Shown one piece after another: positions 234 through 13,422 of a stretch of 22,666 nt of DNA. The first letter of the stretch is position 1. Every line of letters starts with the position of its first letter. The notes under the pieces were generated by a model. The model saw nothing but the letters and a program-made list of their open reading frames with translations, did no database searches and had not been told where the DNA came from. Source of the stretch: a virus; the IMG/VR virus record IMGVR_UViG_3300008110_001031, positions 1-22,666 of that record. One strand, 5' to 3'. The position numbers were made by a program, and so were the translations under genes.

Positions 234-1259
234 TTATTTTTTCCAATAACTTTCTATTTTTGATAATAATTCTCCAAGGATCTTATCATTCAAAGGATTC
301 TTTAAATACTCAATACACTCTGATGAGTTACGACCCATCATTGATTGTGATGCCATATGATAAATCATACCATCTGATTTTGTGGCTATTAATTTATAGA
401 AGTTAGCATCTTTAACCAAAGCTCTTAACTTAAGACTTTCAACATCTTGTTCACAAGCTTCTAAGAAAGTTTCAGCTGCTCTTCTTAAATTAGTTTCAAC
501 ACCTTCACCTGTAATATATTTATCCATGTTGTCATAGATAACATCTAGAGGTGTAGATTTTTTGTATTGAGCACTGTTGCCATCAACAACTTTTGCAATA
601 TACATAAGCTTGCTTGGATTCTTTTTAAAGATTGCTTCAAGCTCAGACAATGCTTTGTTTCTAAGTTTTTTAACTTCTGTTTTAGTAGCAATTGTTGTAA
701 TTGCTTTATCTAAATAAAACTTAGGTGATACGGCTCTACTTCTAGCATCTTCATAGCTTTTAGCTACAATAGAAAATCCTCCGGCTTCAATAGCATATAA
801 CTTAATTAAATCATAAGCATTAGCTTCAGGATCTAGAGGCACAGGTTGATTACCACATCTTACAGTAATTCTACTCCAGAATTTTTCATTACTTGGAGAT
901 AACAATTTTACTTTGTTCCAAAAATCTGGATCTTTAGGATCCAAAATATTTGTTGCTAATTCTGCTTCCAGTTTAGCTACAACTTTGTTAATCTCACTAA
1001 TTCTAGCTTCCCTTTTTTCAGGATCTTGAATTAGTTTAACATCTGGAGCAAATGGATTAAGACCAGTAATGTATCTTATAACTCCATTGTTTTCTACACA
1101 AGCTAATTGCTCTTCATGAAATACTCCATCAAAAAGGGATATTCCATAGTTTTGCAATCCTAGGTTGTCTACATTAGGATCAAAGAACGGCTTAATTGTG
1201 ATTTTACCTTTTTCAGATAATGTTGGTATTTCTACCATTGTCATGTTTGTTTTACTCAT
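234..1259 (-). CDS. Conserved-looking phage protein next to the capsid gene (341 aa), probable structural role
   Basis: A 341-aa soluble protein with no membrane segment. The middle and C-terminal parts are helical and charged; examples are the stretch around TEVKKLRNKALSELEAIF (about 196-213) and the ending LSKIESYWKK. It resembles proteins encoded beside capsid genes in other large Bacteroidota phages, but I know of no assigned function. It follows the capsid gene after 138 bases that hold strong hairpins. Its start is preceded by AAAAACCAACAA two bases before the ATG, exactly as for the scaffold candidate and the 56-aa protein, which argues for co-regulation with virion genes. Candidate roles are head completion, head-tail joining or an internal head protein. 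That is inference from position only. Confidence 0.75.
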   Translation of the reverse strand: MSKTNMTMVEIPTLSEKGKITIKPFFDPNVDNLGLQNYGISLFDGVFHEEQLACVENNGVIRYITGLNPFAPDVKLIQDPEKREARISEINKVVAKLEAELATNILDPKDPDFWNKVKLLSPSNEKFWSRITVRCGNQPVPLDPEANAYDLIKLYAIEAGGFSIVAKSYEDARSRAVSPKFYLDKAITTIATKTEVKKLRNKALSELEAIFKKNPSKLMYIAKVVDGNSAQYKKSTPLDVIYDNMDKYITGEGVETNLRRAAETFLEACEQDVESLKLRALVKDANFYKLIATKSDGMIYHMASQSMMGRNSSECIEYLKNPLNDKILGELLSKIESYWKK

Positions 1260-1261
1260 TT

Positions 1262-1273
1262 TTGTTGGTTTTT
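1262..1273 (-). promoter_or_regulatory. Leader motif AAAAACCAACAA before the 341-aa gene
   Basis: Exact copy of the 12-base leader, again two bases before the start codon, located between the structured element at 1344-1299 and the ATG at 1259. Confidence 0.55.
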
Positions 1274-1298
1274 GGTGGTTTATTTGTCTGACATTTGA

Positions 1299-1344
1299 GC
1301 CTAGATCAGGTTATAATCCTACATGCTTAAAGCATCATCTAGGC
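1299..1344 (-). ncRNA. Three-way-junction RNA structure in the leader of the 341-aa gene
   Basis: GCCTAGAT (1299-1306) pairs perfectly with ATCTAGGC (1337-1344). Inside this 8-bp closing stem are two further inverted repeats: AGG/CCT around a seven-base TTATAAT loop (1308-1320) and ATGCT/AGCAT around TAA (1323-1335). The two arms fill almost the whole interval, giving a compact junction. No T-run follows on the minus strand, so it is not a standard intrinsic terminator. It is too short for a tRNA. Possible roles are mRNA stabilisation, RNase processing or translational control of the next gene. The pairing is seen in the sequence; the role is inferred. Confidence 0.5.
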
Positions 1345-1349
1345 GATGG

Positions 1350-1390
1350 CACTCTGTAGCGGGTAGTTGGGAGGGTCTACCCGCGTAGTG
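1350..1390 (-). terminator. GC-rich hairpin directly after the capsid gene (terminator or attenuator candidate)
   Basis: GCGGGTAG (1359-1366) pairs with CTACCCGC (1377-1384) around a 10-base loop. A second short stem, CACT (1350-1353) with AGTG (1387-1390), can extend it across an internal loop. It starts eight bases past the capsid stop codon and is the most GC-rich spot nearby. There is no downstream T-run on the minus strand. It may therefore act as a partial terminator, or as a 3'-end stabiliser for capsid mRNA, rather than a full stop. Confidence 0.5.
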
Positions 1391-1397
1391 CTAATGG

Positions 1398-3032
1398 TTA
1401 GAATGATCCACCTGTAATTGGGTTTCTCATTACAATCTTCAATACTTTGGTAGGATCTTTCACCCAGATAGCAGGCATGGTCTGTGTCATATAAACACGG
1501 TATCCATTAAACTGACCAACTGAAGCAAAACCTTGTGTACGGCCCATGTAATCCATAGTACCGTTTTGATACCACCATTTTAATTGATTATCCCAAGATA
1601 ACTTCAACATAAAGATGTTGTCATTTCCTGTATCAGTGATATCGAAAATGATGAAGCTATAAGATGATAAAGGATTACCATCGATGATTGGGTTTTCAAT
1701 ATCATTGGTATGTAAGTTATCAAAAGCTGGGTTCAACACAAACTTAACATTTGCTAAGAAAGGAATCACATAGCTAGTGAAAGCAAATCCAAAGTTCAAG
1801 TCCATTGCACTTGTTCCATTGATTGCATTACCAATACCTGTGTTAGAAGAACCAGTAACCGCTACAAGACCAGAGTTTACTGCCTCACGCTTGATAGCTT
1901 CGTTTACTAATCTCATACCACCCATACCTGTTTGAACAATTAATTGTCTCTTAGGATCTGGACCTTGGAACTCCACACGACCAGCGTAGAAGTTATATAA
2001 CTCAGCGCGGAACAATTCAAGTGAGAAACCTGATTTGTTGTATACGCGTTTGAAAGAGTTATCCAATTGCTTCCATAAACCTACTGATAAACGGATATCA
2101 TCTGGACCATCTTGCTTAACGCGACCACCATGACCCCACATTAAGTAAGTCTCAATATCTTGAGCTACCTTAGTTAAGTGAGCTGCTTCCATAGTTGTCA
2201 TAAAGGTACGAGTTAAAGTACCATTGCCCATAGCACGCTTAACATAATCCTTACCCATTTTAGCAACCATATCTTCAATCTTAGAGATTGATGGATCCAT
2301 TGTTTTGTCAAAGTTTCTCCAGATCTCAGTTACAGGTACTGTGCCATCAGCATTCATACCACCACGAGTCATTAAATCAGCACGAGAAGATACTGAATAG
2401 TGAACATGTGCTTCAGCTCCACCTACGAAGTTATAGAACTCGCGGAAACCAGCACGTGTTGCGATATCAGAGAATCTTTCGCCATACTCACCACGAGCAG
2501 AACCTTTACGGAAGATCTTGGTTCCATTGGTTAAGTATTTGTTGTCTAAGAACTTATAGTTATCATTGTTAACTAATTGAACGGTGTAGACAAATCCATC
2601 GCTCATTGGAAGAATATCATCAGCTGTGATATACAATTCGCAACCATTAAACTTATCATAAGTGATGATATCACCATGACCAAATTCTCTACGGCTGATT
2701 TTGATTTTGAAGGTTGTACCATCAATACCTTTGTTGTAGTTTTCTGGCTCAATATCTTCGATGATGAAAGGAAGATCTTGTGACACAGGAGTTTGCCATT
2801 TGTACTCACCACGCGCATTATCAACCATGATAATGTTCTTACCACCAAAAGATGATAATTGGTAAAGAGGCATTTCTACTTTTTGTGCCATTGCCCAAAT
2901 GTCTACTGGACCCATATCCATAGGCTCAGCATTTTTTAGCATATTCACTAAGTGATAAGAATCAACATGTGAACTCGCTTGATAGTTGGTATCTCTTAGG
3001 AAAATACCATTGTTTAAAACTGGAGTGCTCAT
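1398..3032 (-). CDS. Major capsid protein candidate (544 aa)
   Basis: This protein would form the icosahedral shell. Three things support the call: its length (544 aa, usual for capsid proteins of large Bacteroidota phages), its place after portal and scaffold candidates in the standard head-gene order, and a sequence character typical of HK97-fold capsid proteins. That character includes the GPDPKRQLIVQTGMGGM segment near residues 357-373 and an Asn/Gly/aromatic-rich C-terminal half without membrane segments or coiled coil. The N-terminus (MSTPVLNNG...) is not obviously a cleaved scaffold domain, in keeping with a separate scaffold gene. The start has an A-rich leader (AAAACAAAAAACAAAA) instead of a Shine-Dalgarno site. 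The scaffold stop lies 30 bases upstream. The assignment rests on context and general resemblance rather than on catalytic residues. Confidence 0.8.
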   Translation of the reverse strand: MSTPVLNNGIFLRDTNYQASSHVDSYHLVNMLKNAEPMDMGPVDIWAMAQKVEMPLYQLSSFGGKNIIMVDNARGEYKWQTPVSQDLPFIIEDIEPENYNKGIDGTTFKIKISRREFGHGDIITYDKFNGCELYITADDILPMSDGFVYTVQLVNNDNYKFLDNKYLTNGTKIFRKGSARGEYGERFSDIATRAGFREFYNFVGGAEAHVHYSVSSRADLMTRGGMNADGTVPVTEIWRNFDKTMDPSISKIEDMVAKMGKDYVKRAMGNGTLTRTFMTTMEAAHLTKVAQDIETYLMWGHGGRVKQDGPDDIRLSVGLWKQLDNSFKRVYNKSGFSLELFRAELYNFYAGRVEFQGPDPKRQLIVQTGMGGMRLVNEAIKREAVNSGLVAVTGSSNTGIGNAINGTSAMDLNFGFAFTSYVIPFLANVKFVLNPAFDNLHTNDIENPIIDGNPLSSYSFIIFDITDTGNDNIFMLKLSWDNQLKWWYQNGTMDYMGRTQGFASVGQFNGYRVYMTQTMPAIWVKDPTKVLKIVMRNPITGGSF

Positions 3033-4460: not shown

Positions 4461-7235
4461 TTACTTTTTCTTCTCCTTACTTTTTTGTTTTGCTTTCTCG
4501 TCATACTTGTTTTTATTCTCTCTAGCTATCTGTAAATCAACATCTTTAAGGTTTCTTTGATTCTGTAACTTTTCCCTTTCTAGATTTATTTTTTCTCTAA
4601 ACTGGGATTGTTTATTAACCTCTTTAGTTTTATCAAAGTTCATGATTTGATTAAACTCATTTGACTGTTGGATTTTATCTAGAGTATCTTGGTAATCACT
4701 CTGCATATTCTGATTAATATCTTGCATAGCACCATAGCCTGCAGATTTAATCTCAGCAACCAAGATATCTTTTCTTCTATTCTTTTCTTCTTCAAGAGCT
4801 TTAGCATCAAGCTCCATTTGTTTTTCTTTGGTACGCTGTTCAACTTCCATCTGCTTCATCTGTTGCTCATGCTGCATTTGTTCTTGACGAGCTGCATTAG
4901 CTTTATCTTCTATTCCTTTCAATGTAGAAGAAAGCTCAGATAAAGAGTTACTTTGTATAACTTCACCAAGATCATAGATACTTGCACCGGCTGTATTATT
5001 ACTCATAGCTAATTGACGCATTTGTTCTAGTAATGCTCTATGATTAGATCTAGTTGTAGCGTAAACATTTATATCTCTTAGCAATAAAGTAGTACCATTT
5101 ATTTCAAAGTTTACTTTTTCTTCTTTGCTAGTCATGTATTGTAATCTTAAAGAAGGTTTTTTAGAATGGTAAAACTGTGCTAAATCAGTTCTCATCTGGT
5201 GTACTCTAGGCATTAGATAATCAGAGTGTTGTATAAAATACATCTCTGTTTGAGCATAAGATCCAGCCACAGCTTGTTCTATACCTTTAGCTGTTTCAGT
5301 TTGTCCTATTTGCTGACCCATTCTCTGAGGAGTAATACCTATAACTTCAAAAGCTTGTTGCTTAAAGTAGTTAGCCATCTGAATTCTAGACATCATCCTT
5401 TGAGTTTGCTCTAGATTCATCACTTGGAAGTGTTGGAAATTTAAAGCATTTTCTGTATTAGTGATGCTCGTATCTAGAGGTAGCATTTGGAAATTCTTCA
5501 TTGCTACATAGGCTTTTGCTAAATTATTTTTACCCCAATCTTCACCCAAGGAATGTCTAGGTAAAGCATTCTGATCCAACATGATCACGGTGCCCAATTC
5601 ATCTACCAGGATATCTGCTATCTGATTGTTAACAATGTTGTATCCAATCTGATAAGGTTTCATCAAATCTACTAAAGCTGTAGATCTAGTATTTCTATCT
5701 CCAAATACAGATCCCTCTACTGGTAATTTACATCCATACAAAGTATTATCACCTTTGAATTGGAATCTTAGTGGACCAATAACATTTTTATCAATACCTA
5801 GGTAAATAGGATTTACACCACCTGGATTATTCATACCCCAGAATGTAGGATGATTAGGGCCAATCTTTACTCCGCCCCAAGTTTGATTAATCCAAATCCA
5901 ATCTATATGCTCTCCAAATACTAAGGTGTCTTTGTTTTTATTTTTAACAAGCATGTTATTATAAACAGGCTTATCTGTTACTTTATAAGTTTCATCTACT
6001 ACATCAGTAATAACTTCACCTGCTTCTGTAATTCTAGTTAGATGACCTACTTTACGCTGAGACTTCCAATAACAAGTAGTTACACGAAGCATGTAAGCCA
6101 TACCCATATCAAAGTAATCTTCAGATTCACCCATGATCCAGTTAACAATATCTCCACCATTGTAGACAAAGTTATCCCACATAGATACAAATTGTCTATA
6201 AGCTAATGATGGCATATTAACATTCCACTCATGGCTTTTTGTAGCATCGTAATAAGCACCATCATTTTGGTATCCTTGAATAGGATAACCAGCTGATCTA
6301 ACCGGGTAGATAGCCTCTATAGATTCTAGCTGCTCTTGGTTCATGATATAGCCGTACTTGTCTATAACATCGGCCACAGTCATCATCTCAATTTTACCAA
6401 CCCAATTACCTTGGGAGATATATCTTACATCAGGTGATTTATGGTAGAAAGTTAATACAGGATTCCATAATTCTACATCATAATCATCCTCCATCATCCT
6501 GAAGTGCCAGAACTCTCTATCAGTAATTAAGCTATCGCGAAAACCTCTCTCTTCTAACTCATCCATTTTAAATCTTTCTTCATCAATAGCTAACTGATGA
6601 GAAGCCCATTCTTCTGCAACATTTCTGTAGCTTTTGCTAAAAAAGTCTTGAATCTCTGGTAATGTTTTAAGATTTTCTGGAGCCAATTGTTGTTGCATCT
6701 GCTGTTGCATCTCAGGATCATTAGGATCTGCACCAGATTCTAACATCTTAGTTATCAACATATTTTGAGCATCTTCCAATAATACAGCTTCAATAGCTGC
6801 GCGTTTTTGCTCCATTAACTCATTATAAGAATACTCATCAACAGCTGTGAATGATATCTTGCTATTTCTTTTAGCAAACTCAGCTGTCATGGTATTAATA
6901 ACATTAGGAATAATTGGATAAAACTTTAACTCTAAAGCTGTTGAATCATCTTTAGTTAAAGTCTCAACCAGATCACGCATCTCGTTATCTTCTTGAACAA
7001 TGTAATCAGTTTTATCAATGATCCCTTTGGCAAGCTTATAATTTTTCATAAGCCTTCTAGCATTTCTTCTGATTTGCTTAAGACCTTGCCACTCAAGCCA
7101 GTCCATGTTCCAAGACACCCATTCTTTGTCTTTTTCACTTCTTGGAATAAATTGAACAGGTTGAGTAATACTACCCATCCTATTATACTCAGCTTTAGCT
7201 CCTGATTTGAGCTGCATTGCATTTAATACTTTCAT
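4461..7235 (-). CDS. Portal protein (924 aa)
   Basis: The portal forms the dodecameric channel at one capsid vertex through which DNA is packaged and ejected. The gene begins one base after the large terminase stop, the standard arrangement, and the product has the length of long crAss-like and related portals. The N-terminal part is helical. The segment YHKSPDVRYISQGNWVG (264-280), followed by KIEMMTVADVIDKYG, is of a kind I associate with portals of large Bacteroidota podovirus-like phages. The C-terminal stretch from about 785 onward is a long Lys/Glu/Gln-rich coiled coil (EQMQHEQQMKQMEVEQRTKE region). It probably forms the barrel or crown, and ends in a highly basic tail (KAKQKSKEKKK). 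No signal peptide. No frameshift is seen. Confidence 0.88.
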   Translation of the reverse strand: MKVLNAMQLKSGAKAEYNRMGSITQPVQFIPRSEKDKEWVSWNMDWLEWQGLKQIRRNARRLMKNYKLAKGIIDKTDYIVQEDNEMRDLVETLTKDDSTALELKFYPIIPNVINTMTAEFAKRNSKISFTAVDEYSYNELMEQKRAAIEAVLLEDAQNMLITKMLESGADPNDPEMQQQMQQQLAPENLKTLPEIQDFFSKSYRNVAEEWASHQLAIDEERFKMDELEERGFRDSLITDREFWHFRMMEDDYDVELWNPVLTFYHKSPDVRYISQGNWVGKIEMMTVADVIDKYGYIMNQEQLESIEAIYPVRSAGYPIQGYQNDGAYYDATKSHEWNVNMPSLAYRQFVSMWDNFVYNGGDIVNWIMGESEDYFDMGMAYMLRVTTCYWKSQRKVGHLTRITEAGEVITDVVDETYKVTDKPVYNNMLVKNKNKDTLVFGEHIDWIWINQTWGGVKIGPNHPTFWGMNNPGGVNPIYLGIDKNVIGPLRFQFKGDNTLYGCKLPVEGSVFGDRNTRSTALVDLMKPYQIGYNIVNNQIADILVDELGTVIMLDQNALPRHSLGEDWGKNNLAKAYVAMKNFQMLPLDTSITNTENALNFQHFQVMNLEQTQRMMSRIQMANYFKQQAFEVIGITPQRMGQQIGQTETAKGIEQAVAGSYAQTEMYFIQHSDYLMPRVHQMRTDLAQFYHSKKPSLRLQYMTSKEEKVNFEINGTTLLLRDINVYATTRSNHRALLEQMRQLAMSNNTAGASIYDLGEVIQSNSLSELSSTLKGIEDKANAARQEQMQHEQQMKQMEVEQRTKEKQMELDAKALEEEKNRRKDILVAEIKSAGYGAMQDINQNMQSDYQDTLDKIQQSNEFNQIMNFDKTKEVNKQSQFREKINLEREKLQNQRNLKDVDLQIARENKNKYDEKAKQKSKEKKK

Positions 7236-7236
7236 C

Positions 7237-9441
7237 TTATCTTATATTTTTAAACATATTTCTTGGAGGCTTACCACCGGAAATAGAATTCCCCTTCCCC
7301 ATGTGGCGAAAAGGACTGCTCACTAATTTATATAAATTATTCTCTTTTTGCAAAGATTTTGTTTGTATATGTTCAACTCTTTTCTTTAGACCTCTATTAG
7401 ATTGCTGAATCTTTGCAAAAGCAATCAAAGCAGCTAAAGAAACTAATCTATCGACATTGACACCATCATCATAAGCTTCCATCTCTTTCATAGCCATAAC
7501 ATCTGGTATTCTTGATATACCATATACTCTTTTTACCACTGTTCCATCTTCCTTAGTTTCAACATCAATCTCTTCTTTTAAAAATTCAATAAGATAACTA
7601 AGTAGATGTGTTTTAAATAAAACACCAGTATTCTTCCAACCATATTCTTGATAAACATTTCTATTAGCTCCAAGGTCTTTTAGAAACATTATCTGATCTT
7701 TAGGTACTAGGTATTTTTGTTTATGCTTACTAATCATATATTGAATGAACAAAGATATATTGTTTTCTATGATTGTCCACGCATTATACCATTCAATTAT
7801 GAACTCTAATCTTTCATGGGTTCTATTTATATCGTCAAATCTACCACACCAGGCCGCAACAATTTTATCGTGTTCTATAAAAGTTTCTACTAATTCTCCT
7901 TTAATTCTCTTTACTTCTACAGCTCTTTTGTAAACATAGATGGAACAAAGAGATTCTGATGTAGTTGTTTTACCTTCTGATACCGGGTCAATTGATGCAT
8001 AGTATGTGCCCCATTCAGCATTTTTATCTGGTTTTTCCCAGACAACTATTGCACCTGTTTTGTCTTCAGTGTCTTTAGTTATTGGAAACTCTGATATAGG
8101 TATTTTATTTGTAAGTTTATGTTCTATCTTATTATCTATTAGATTTCTGTGTAACTCTACAAGCTCATATGGAAAATCTTTATCAAGAATTTTTCTTTTA
8201 TGACTACCAACTAATTCCATTGGAAACATAGAAACTTTTCTATAAGCAAATGCTTCACTTATATTAATCGGATGCTGAGATATACGAAGCTGATATTTTT
8301 CTGGAGTTAAATCTTTTTTCCAAGCTTTTCTCATAGAAGCTATCGCTTCCAAAGCATCTTCTACTTTAGAATTACCATACTCATCAATGTAAGGAGGCAT
8401 AGACCACTGCTCTGGAATAAATAATCCGGTGATTGCTACAGTGCCCTGATCATCTAGTAGATTTGTTTCTACTCCGTATATATCATTAGATAAAGGTCTA
8501 AGTATCATCTCTTTCAAAGGAACACATTGATCTAGATCACCCACGGATCCTGCTGCAATAAATAAACCTGTAGTCATATGACCAGATTGTAGAGCAGGTC
8601 TAAGGAACTCATAAGTCTGATCCATCTTAGGAGCAATACCTGCTTCTTCGTGGAAGAATATTGTACAAGGTCCACCGACACCAGCTGTTGGATCTTTCTC
8701 AAAAGTTAGCATGGACATTACACCCTTTAAACCTTTTAAGAACTTTCTACCTTGAGTGCTCATCTCTTCTATCTGCTGTTGCCAGTTACCCATTTTACCA
8801 GGATTCATTGGTCGGTACCAAGCAGTATGCTGGTTTAAAAAAGATCTATATTCTTCTAAAAATTTCCAAGAACCTTTGTCATTAATATAATCTTTTAGAC
8901 TAGCACCTATTTTGAGAATAGGTGTTTCTTCAAACCAAAGAGTATTAATAAGTTTAGCACAATGAAAATAAGAAGAAGCTATCTGTCTTTTCTTTAAAAT
9001 AGCAGCATGCTTATAGTTTAACTCAGCTAGTAACTCATATAGAGCCATATGATACTGAGCATCCCTGATAGAAGCAAAGTCAAACTTTTTTTGCTCTTTA
9101 TCATTGATTCTTAAAAAGTTAAGGAACATGTAATAGTCCCTAGGTAAATACCAAACTTTACCATTGTTTTTAAAAATAGCTCCTTTTCTACATTTTGTTT
9201 TTTGATCATCCCAATAGTTTATAAAGTCTCTGCTTTTAAAAGGAGCTGTACAATACAAACCATTTTTATTAAAATTCCTAGCTTGCTGATTAAACAATAA
9301 AGATGTTTCATCAAACTCGTATTTACCAGGTTCTTTAAAACAAGTATGGACAAATTCTCTAAAGTCATCTCTTGTTTCAAAAGATGTTGTTGTCCAGGTA
9401 CCGTTTTCCCAAGTAGGAACTTCTATAAAAGGATTACTCAT
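7237..9441 (-). CDS. terL: Terminase large subunit (734 aa)
   Basis: This is the ATP-driven packaging motor and headful nuclease. The ATPase half has a Walker A-like KKRQIASS (150-157), of the degenerate type common in T4- and P22-like terminases, and a Walker B with catalytic Glu in IFFHEE (261-266). The C-terminal nuclease half has an RNase H-like Asp in YYASIDP (Asp485), a Glu in WTIIENN (Glu559) and the closing acidic motif AYDDGVNVDR (Asp658, Asp659, Asp664). All key residues are present. The start overlaps the stop of the 73-aa gene by eight bases, so translation is probably coupled. The portal gene follows after one base. No intein or intron is apparent. Confidence 0.95.
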   Translation of the reverse strand: MSNPFIEVPTWENGTWTTTSFETRDDFREFVHTCFKEPGKYEFDETSLLFNQQARNFNKNGLYCTAPFKSRDFINYWDDQKTKCRKGAIFKNNGKVWYLPRDYYMFLNFLRINDKEQKKFDFASIRDAQYHMALYELLAELNYKHAAILKKRQIASSYFHCAKLINTLWFEETPILKIGASLKDYINDKGSWKFLEEYRSFLNQHTAWYRPMNPGKMGNWQQQIEEMSTQGRKFLKGLKGVMSMLTFEKDPTAGVGGPCTIFFHEEAGIAPKMDQTYEFLRPALQSGHMTTGLFIAAGSVGDLDQCVPLKEMILRPLSNDIYGVETNLLDDQGTVAITGLFIPEQWSMPPYIDEYGNSKVEDALEAIASMRKAWKKDLTPEKYQLRISQHPINISEAFAYRKVSMFPMELVGSHKRKILDKDFPYELVELHRNLIDNKIEHKLTNKIPISEFPITKDTEDKTGAIVVWEKPDKNAEWGTYYASIDPVSEGKTTTSESLCSIYVYKRAVEVKRIKGELVETFIEHDKIVAAWCGRFDDINRTHERLEFIIEWYNAWTIIENNISLFIQYMISKHKQKYLVPKDQIMFLKDLGANRNVYQEYGWKNTGVLFKTHLLSYLIEFLKEEIDVETKEDGTVVKRVYGISRIPDVMAMKEMEAYDDGVNVDRLVSLAALIAFAKIQQSNRGLKKRVEHIQTKSLQKENNLYKLVSSPFRHMGKGNSISGGKPPRNMFKNIR

Positions 9442-12729: not shown

Positions 12730-12757
12730 GGCTATTATATTTTAAATTAAACTTAGA

Positions 12758-12788
12758 CAAATATAATAAGATAAGTTTAAACTTGCAA
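12758..12788 (-). promoter_or_regulatory. Bacteroidota-type promoter of the packaging operon
   Basis: On the minus strand TTG (12788-12786) is followed by 20 bases and TATATTTG (12765-12758), matching the Bacteroidota -33/-7 consensus. It lies directly after the intrinsic terminator of the holin gene and about 30 bases before the 94-aa gene. It should start the transcript carrying the packaging genes down to the portal. Confidence 0.8.
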
Positions 12789-12797
12789 GAGTTAAAT

Positions 12798-12825
12798 AAA
12801 AAAAAATCCCTAGATTTCTCTAGGG
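12798..12825 (-). terminator. Intrinsic terminator after the holin-like gene
   Basis: On the minus strand the stem CCCTAGA/TCTAGGG closes a GAAA tetraloop and is followed by A and then nine T. This is a textbook Rho-independent terminator. It lies 27 bases past the stop of the holin-like gene. Confidence 0.9.
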
Positions 12826-12851
12826 AGCAATTTAAAATATATAGTAAATGG

Positions 12852-13166: not shown

Positions 13167-13198
13167 CAAATATAACTTATATTTCAAAAGAATGCAAA
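13167..13198 (-). promoter_or_regulatory. Bacteroidota-type promoter of the holin-like gene
   Basis: TTTG (13198-13195), 20 bases, then TATATTTG (13174-13167) on the minus strand: a full match to the -33/-7 consensus. It follows the terminator of the 56-aa gene without a gap and lies about 80 bases before the ATG at 13085. This leaves a leader of roughly 75 bases. Confidence 0.85.
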
Positions 13199-13199
13199 C

Positions 13200-13228
13200 A
13201 AAAAAAGGCAGAGATTAATCTACCTTTT
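13200..13228 (-). terminator. Intrinsic terminator overlapping the end of the 56-aa gene
   Basis: Minus-strand AAAAGGTAGA pairs with TCTGCCTTTT (one G-U pair) around a six-base loop that contains the TAA stop codon of the 56-aa gene. A run of seven T overlaps and follows the stem. The T-run ends two bases before the -33 element of the holin promoter. Confidence 0.75.
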
Positions 13229-13385
13229 CTAATGTTTTTTCATTTGTCTTTTCCAGCTCTTTAGCTATTACTATTAAAGCTGTTTGGACTGCTTGGTGAT
13301 CTTTAAGATTACCTACAAAAGCTGCTGCAACATTTTGAATAATCTTGAGAGCTTCTTCTTTGGGCATTTGAATTTGTTCACTCAT
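13215..13385 (-). CDS. 56-aa helical protein, unknown
   Basis: A short frame reading MSEQIQMPKEEALKIIQNVA, then AAFVGNLKDHQAVQTALIVI, then AKELEKTNEKTLEKVD. The whole protein should be helical and amphipathic, acidic, with no membrane span. Support that it is real: it has the 12-base leader AAAAACCAACAA two bases before its ATG, a TATATTTG box 22 bases upstream, and a terminator at its end. It lies between the fibre locus and the holin-like gene. A lysis-regulating (antiholin-like) or minor virion role is possible, but nothing in the sequence decides this. Confidence 0.8.
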   Translation of the reverse strand: MSEQIQMPKEEALKIIQNVAAAFVGNLKDHQAVQTALIVIAKELEKTNEKTLEKVD

Positions 13386-13387
13386 GG

Positions 13388-13399
13388 TTGTTGGTTTTT
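13388..13399 (-). promoter_or_regulatory. Leader motif AAAAACCAACAA before the 56-aa gene
   Basis: Third exact copy of the 12-base leader, two bases before the ATG at 13385. Confidence 0.55.
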
Positions 13400-13407
13400 A
13401 ATTATTG

Positions 13408-13415
13408 CAAATATA
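13408..13415 (-). promoter_or_regulatory. TATATTTG box between the fibre locus and the 56-aa gene
   Basis: TATATTTG on the minus strand matches the Bacteroidota -7 element, 22 bases before the ATG. As at the scaffold gene, no TTTG or TTG is found at the -33 distance. Confidence 0.5.
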
Positions 13416-13422
13416 AACTTTT

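Follow-up and report, generated by a model that had tools for sequence, protein, structure and literature searches.

The tRNA-like structures (TLS) of plant viruses of the TYMV type lie at the ends of RNA-virus genomes, contain a pseudoknot in the acceptor arm and can be aminoacylated. Bacterial RNase P recognises an acceptor stem stacked on a T-arm. It also cuts phage M3 RNA, the C4 RNAs of P1 and P7, T4 gene 32 mRNA and operon mRNAs, which it sees as tRNA-like, as well as the plant-virus TLS (PMC11143913). In MALAT1 and NEAT1, a tRNA-like RNA (mascRNA/menRNA, RF01684) is excised by RNase P and RNase Z, and an RNA structure protects the new end (PMC12941219). In mitochondrial polycistrons, intergenic tRNAs punctuate the transcript, and RNase P together with a 3' nuclease frees the mRNAs (PMC5474008).

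In this study, we focused on the gap behind the major capsid protein gene of a virus in IMG/VR (record IMGVR_UViG_3300008110_001031, positions 1 to 22,666; this whole stretch of 22,666 bases, G000, is called the window below). As in MALAT1 and NEAT1, a tRNA mimic with an acceptor/T-arm minihelix and a reduced anticodon side is found, and another RNA structure is positioned just 5' of the predicted cut, where it would have a stabilising role. However, those transcripts are vertebrate lncRNAs with a triple-helix stabiliser, whereas the viral gap carries a two-storey hairpin in the protein-coding mRNA of a bacterial virus, in which transcription continues into the next gene and cleavage is presumed. 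The element also resembles mitochondrial punctuation, since an intergenic tRNA-shaped RNA would free mRNAs, but the mitochondrial elements are functional tRNAs and the viral one has no decoding capacity and occurs singly, at one gene boundary. It shares with the plant-virus TLS the character of a viral tRNA mimic with a pseudoknot; unlike the TYMV type, it is internal, its pseudoknot joins a linker to the T-loop, and it has no usable anticodon. To our knowledge, none of the known non-tRNA substrates of RNase P has been described as a conserved, covarying TLS taking the place of a terminator downstream of a capsid gene. The same applies to those covered in PMC11143913.

A tRNA-like RNA structure behind the capsid gene

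All genes of the window are on the minus strand (Table 1). The closest annotated relatives of the capsid protein belong to crAss-like and allied phages, with less than 30% identity, and at least 599 matching stretches in IMG/VR encode relatives of the gene. Relatives were found in MAGs labelled Bacteroidia, Bacteroidales and Chitinophagaceae, and also Campylobacteraceae and Pseudomonadales, labels that hint only weakly at the host. No family match was found for the 341-aa product of the downstream gene, and the record contains no tRNA gene. A small protein of 'YPEVVKNPTQYKGGKN'-like repeat units is located at 24-221.

Between the capsid gene and its downstream neighbour lies a gap of 138 bases (1260-1397). 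The minus strand of 1255-1405 folded at -36.1 kcal/mol, compared with -21.7 +/- 3.4 kcal/mol for 200 dinucleotide shuffles (z -4.22), none of which was as low, and the plus strand of the gap folded unremarkably (z -1.73). The GC-rich multi-hairpin element proposed here by the initial annotation is thus real, with positions off by one or two bases. The 8-bp GC-rich hairpin with an outer extension, which had been placed at 1350-1390, was found at 1391-1349 with a bulge (1358-1354) on its 3' side, and the three-way junction at 1299-1344 was recovered as an 8-bp stem (1344-1337/1306-1299) enclosing two hairpins. The same annotation had seen a T-run behind neither element; we also found none behind hairpin 1 or the TLS, and the window gap contains no intrinsic (Rho-independent) terminator. 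Hairpins with T-runs are present in other large gaps of the window, such as 12730-12851 and 13188-13422, which indicates that this virus uses ordinary terminators elsewhere.

The initial annotation recognised neither the tRNA-like character of the three-way junction nor the terminators that mostly fill this slot in sister viruses. The junction has an acceptor stem of 7 (8) bp, a T-arm lying directly against the acceptor 3' strand, and an N-C-N-A tail; a D-arm and an anticodon arm with a 7-nt loop are absent. It conforms to a strict tRNA-like geometry, defined as seven Watson-Crick acceptor pairs, a T-arm and an N-C-N-A tail; among 4000 shuffled gap sequences, one had this geometry. Across the 22.7-kb window, this geometry was found on the minus strand only at the TLS and on the plus strand in two chance matches.

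Table 1. Coordinates of the genes and RNA features in the window
Feature	Position	Strand	Description
Large terminase gene	7237-9441	minus	
Portal gene	4461-7235	minus	
Major capsid protein gene	1398-3032	minus	PHROG 11589 major head protein, E 1.3e-28; upstream of gap
Hairpin 1	1349-1391	minus	5-bp outer stem 1391-1387/1353-1349; 8-bp GC-rich inner stem 1384-1377/1366-1359
Spacer, 4 nt	1345-1348	minus	from hairpin 1 to TLS; predicted RNase P cut 1345/1344
TLS body, acceptor position 1 to 72	1299-1344	minus	three-way junction; fold, covariation and geometry scan
Acceptor stem, 5' strand GCCUAGA	1338-1344	minus	followed by eighth pair U1337-A1306
Extra hairpin (AUGCUUUAAGCAU) replacing D/anticodon arms	1323-1335	minus	fold; variable or absent in relatives
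T-arm UAGG-AUUAUAA-CCUG	1307-1321	minus	4 bp and 7-nt loop; fold and alignment invariants
Acceptor stem, 3' strand UCUAGGC	1299-1305	minus	
TLS 3' tail U-C-A-A, positions 73-76	1295-1298	minus	without CCA
Downstream gene, 341 aa	234-1259	minus	next gene past gap

The element escapes the usual finders. Rfam 15 gave no match in window positions 1150-1500 at E <= 10, nor in 14 relatives at the gathering score, and the TLS was recognised neither in the window nor in the relatives by ARAGORN and the tRNA covariance model (RF00005). The mascRNA-menRNA model (RF01684) found nothing in the window. It was the sole Rfam match of the TLS of one relative, L348, at 24.9 bits against a gathering score of 42.5, with an E value of 0.0026 in a 153-base stretch picked after the fact and 0.47 in a wider search; this match is an illustration and not a proof. 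Literature searches, covering few subscription journals and no preprints, retrieved no earlier description.

Selection on the structure and its variation among relatives

We collected 172 distinct post-capsid gaps from relatives, and about 80 of them carry the TLS, with labels assigned partly by eye. The usual form consists of a 7-bp acceptor stem and a 5-bp T-stem with a 7-nt loop, which abuts the acceptor 3' strand, and an N-C-N-A tail. This 7+5-bp stack is the constant part, and the region of the D and anticodon arms is variable or missing. In most copies the middle consists of a linker GUAYGCR and an anticodon-like arm, in the L018 group of a linker without an arm, and in the window, L008, L109, L012 and L130 of one hairpin. 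The TLS of L192 has no middle part at all and is a bare 12-bp minihelix with the 7-nt loop CUCGUAA and the tail UCUA. Such reduction around a constant acceptor/T-arm stack is what would be expected of an RNase P substrate. The anticodon-like arm is confined to one subgroup, and the full tRNA complement of D-arm and anticodon arm was not found. In the group CCTGTT copies (L172, L258, L259 and others), this arm has a 7-nt loop YUGAUCA, a conserved palindrome combined with a U33/GAU-like pattern.

Absence of covariation in homologous gaps had been named in the initial annotation as grounds for rejecting the element; strong covariation was found. In a structure-free MAFFT alignment of 18 copies, 94.9% of the cells were paired, with two-sided changes at 12 of 19 pairs (slid controls, 34-43%), and in 50 copies 96.6% were paired, 12 of 15 pairs having changed on both sides, with 118 two-sided cells (slid controls, 35-44%). 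Groups were counted separately because all-group MAFFT alignments misregister the 5' acceptor strand. In the window's own group (n=5), the eight acceptor pairs were 100% paired and three had changed on both sides. The outer stem of hairpin 1 was likewise 100% paired in 13 of 13 sequences, with two-sided changes at two of its four pairs. These results indicate that the TLS is an RNA structure under selection.

In relatives, GYR of the linker also pairs with YRC of the T-loop (95.7% paired, 19 two-sided cells), a pseudoknot that was outside the model behind the 50-copy alignment. Its pairings include GCA-UGC, GCG-CGC, GCC-GGC (L193, L219) and GUA-UAC (L197, L170, L213), and it resembles the D-loop/T-loop contact of tRNA. 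It is demonstrable in relatives but not in the window copy, whose T-stem has 4 pairs. Covariance model R1, built on distant relatives, misses the window's TLS; the membership of this copy in the family is deduced from synteny, geometry and alignment with L008, L109, L012 and L130. A match of R1 elsewhere in the window (E 0.15, in coding sequence) was judged to be due to chance.

Bases at tRNA positions 53, 55, 59, 61, 71 and 74 were invariant in a renumbered alignment of 16 diverse copies including the window's. The acceptor pair C2-G71 was near-invariant across all TLS groups. In most copies the T-loop is non-canonical (not UUCRANN), with A at position 59 and not 58. T-arms reading GGTTCGATCC or TTCGAAT, as in tRNA, occur in L008, L109, L012 and L348, the last having the canonical loop UUCGAAU and the tail GCAA.

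The tails were compared with those of genuine tRNA genes in near-complete relatives. These genes mostly lack CCA and end in N73-C74-(A/T)-A, with C74 in 43 of 43, and their tails read CAA (17), CTA (10), CTG (5) and CCA (4). Among 28 TLS copies, C74 was present in 27, position 75 was A in 14 and T in 12, and A76 was present in 23. The TLS tails are the same set as those of the related viruses' tRNAs, so that the TLS bears the 3' mark of the group's own tRNAs. Several tRNA-model matches in relatives (G001:13491-13605, G017:120625-120739 and 2186-2353, G015:95139-95281) contain inserts of 47-60+ nt in the D-loop, anticodon arm or variable region and are possibly intron-bearing or tRNA-like RNAs.

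A different conserved RNA, CTCCTGAGAAGCAACNACC-TTGACGT-GGTTCAGGAGCTTT...AGTTGC, occupies the post-capsid gaps of L201, L204, L211 and L317-L347. It has an acceptor-like stem, the 7-nt loop TTGACGT and a possible long pseudoknot, and it may represent another mimic of tRNA or have no relation to the TLS; it was excluded from the TLS family for lack of an N-C-N-A tail. The TLS was not recognised in distant capsid relatives, namely the Leptolyngbya phage and its kin, csAssE, gut crAss-like phages, Cellulophaga phi4:1 and MAG-derived loci (66-75% identity), whose post-capsid slots contain terminators or plain gaps.

Genomic position and exchange with terminators

The TLS is tied to one place in the genome. 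All 14 long relatives with a strong model match have one strong copy per record. When all viral contigs were scanned for the T-arm/acceptor pattern, 60 of the 63 stretches found were behind this capsid gene: in 58 the gene immediately precedes the match within the stretch, and two (L265, L280) are edge-cut copies from the same contigs as L191 and L194. The remaining three were chance matches in coding sequence. A hairpin ends no more than 8 nt (median 3) 5' of acceptor position 1 in 53 of 55 relatives, and 4 nt from it in the window. Small genes inserted after the capsid gene leave the TLS in its position ahead of the next gene (338-341 aa). Such genes directly follow the capsid gene and displace or separate the TLS in L019, L035, L124, L004, L089, L101, L198 and L401, and judging from their reading frames by eye they apparently encode DNA-binding-like products. 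A second conserved module, AACAGTACYCAGG...CCTGRGTC followed by a T-run, lies between the capsid gene and the TLS in L183, L184, L187, L197, L202, L205 and L357 and has sometimes grown into a multi-branched element.

In sister viruses without the TLS, the slot is mostly filled by a terminator. According to script labels, the 172 gaps comprise 75 in which a terminator occurs without a TLS, 61 in which a TLS occurs without a T-run terminator, 14 with both and 22 with neither; L121, labelled as neither, was later seen by eye to carry a TLS, and the tree analysis scored L164, L217, L195 and the truncated L132 as having a reduced or partial TLS. An intrinsic terminator was thus present in 75 of 97 TLS-less relatives and in 14 of 75 TLS-bearing ones (Fisher p 8e-15, a value that ignores ancestry). 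The exclusion is inflated by shared ancestry, and its direction holds on independent pairs: the supported tree pairs number only six, of which about three go in opposite directions and none in the same direction, and the sign test is not significant. Approximately 14-15 changes of the TLS are needed on the capsid tree. In L015 (TLS) and L084 (terminator), the capsid genes are 97% identical and the device has been swapped.

Proposed formation of the capsid mRNA 3' end

We consider it probable that the gap RNA is a bipartite 3'-end former, in which the TLS is excised by RNase P, probably assisted by a tRNA 3' nuclease, and hairpin 1 protects the end of the capsid mRNA. Host RNase P would cut on the 5' side of the TLS, by prediction between 1345 and 1344, and the tRNA 3'-processing nuclease would probably cut behind position 73. 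The capsid message would thereby be split from the downstream message without termination of transcription. Its new 3' end would lie 4 nt past hairpin 1, which may shield it from 3' exonucleases. The analysis shows the RNA structure with its tRNA-like geometry and tail, the selection on it, its position and the terminators that replace it in sister viruses; from there on, cleavage, enzymes and stabilising effect are inferred.

The mimic might instead be the product itself, a small RNA released by RNase P that acts in trans, for example by occupying RNase P, EF-Tu or a synthetase, with trimming of the mRNA as a by-product. Its tail and geometry would permit excision, mascRNA is stable in human cells (PMC12941219), and each genome keeps a single conserved copy. 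However, the body sequence is very variable, down to a bare minihelix, what stays fixed is the position behind the capsid gene and the presence of a preceding hairpin, and the TLS alternates with terminators, which makes such a role rather unlikely. Terminators at the same slot in sister viruses, and the strong hairpin ahead of the junction, would also suit a static 3' roadblock that stabilises the capsid mRNA, or an aid to Rho-dependent or structural termination, without cleavage by tRNA enzymes. This is unlikely too, because the 7+5-bp geometry, the 7-nt loop, the loop-linker pseudoknot and the tRNA-matching N-C-N-A tail would be left unexplained and a T-run is absent.

The sister-virus terminators point to 3'-end formation and so weigh against a cis-acting regulator of the downstream gene, operating on translation or in a riboswitch-like manner. 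That the TLS stays upstream of the 338-341-aa gene even when small genes intervene would agree with such control, but an A-rich unstructured stretch separates the TLS from the start codon, no alternative pairing of the TLS region with that codon was seen, and we hold this role to be improbable. Among the interpretations in the initial annotation, stabilisation of the capsid mRNA and processing together give the best fit, with the hairpin guarding the 3' end ahead of a tRNA-like signal for processing. Least of all do we expect a decaying or defective tRNA gene inserted behind the capsid gene. Real tRNA genes are present in these viruses and the T-arms of L008, L109, L012 and L348 are tRNA-like; yet across dozens of lineages the tail is conserved and base changes compensate each other, which implies selection on the reduced form, to which ARAGORN and the tRNA model are blind. 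The TLS may have descended from a tRNA long ago.

Beyond excision at this one gap, we lean slightly towards a wider reading: in a large environmental crAss-like group, a tRNA mimic may serve as a dedicated processing terminator. RNase P would thereby form the 3' end of the structural mRNA with the highest abundance, evolution would exchange the device freely with intrinsic terminators, and bacterial viruses would possess a counterpart of MALAT1/mascRNA. The locus illustrates how such elements evade tRNA finders and Rfam, and its graded mimics (pseudoknotted, D-armless and bare minihelix) would be useful for studying the requirements of RNase P. If the proposed processing is right, tRNA-like 3'-end processing would have evolved in bacterial viruses besides vertebrate lncRNAs and mitochondria, and numerous natural changeovers between a terminator and an RNase P signal could be compared at one gene boundary. 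An abundant virus group would then rely on the tRNA maturation of its host to express the capsid gene.
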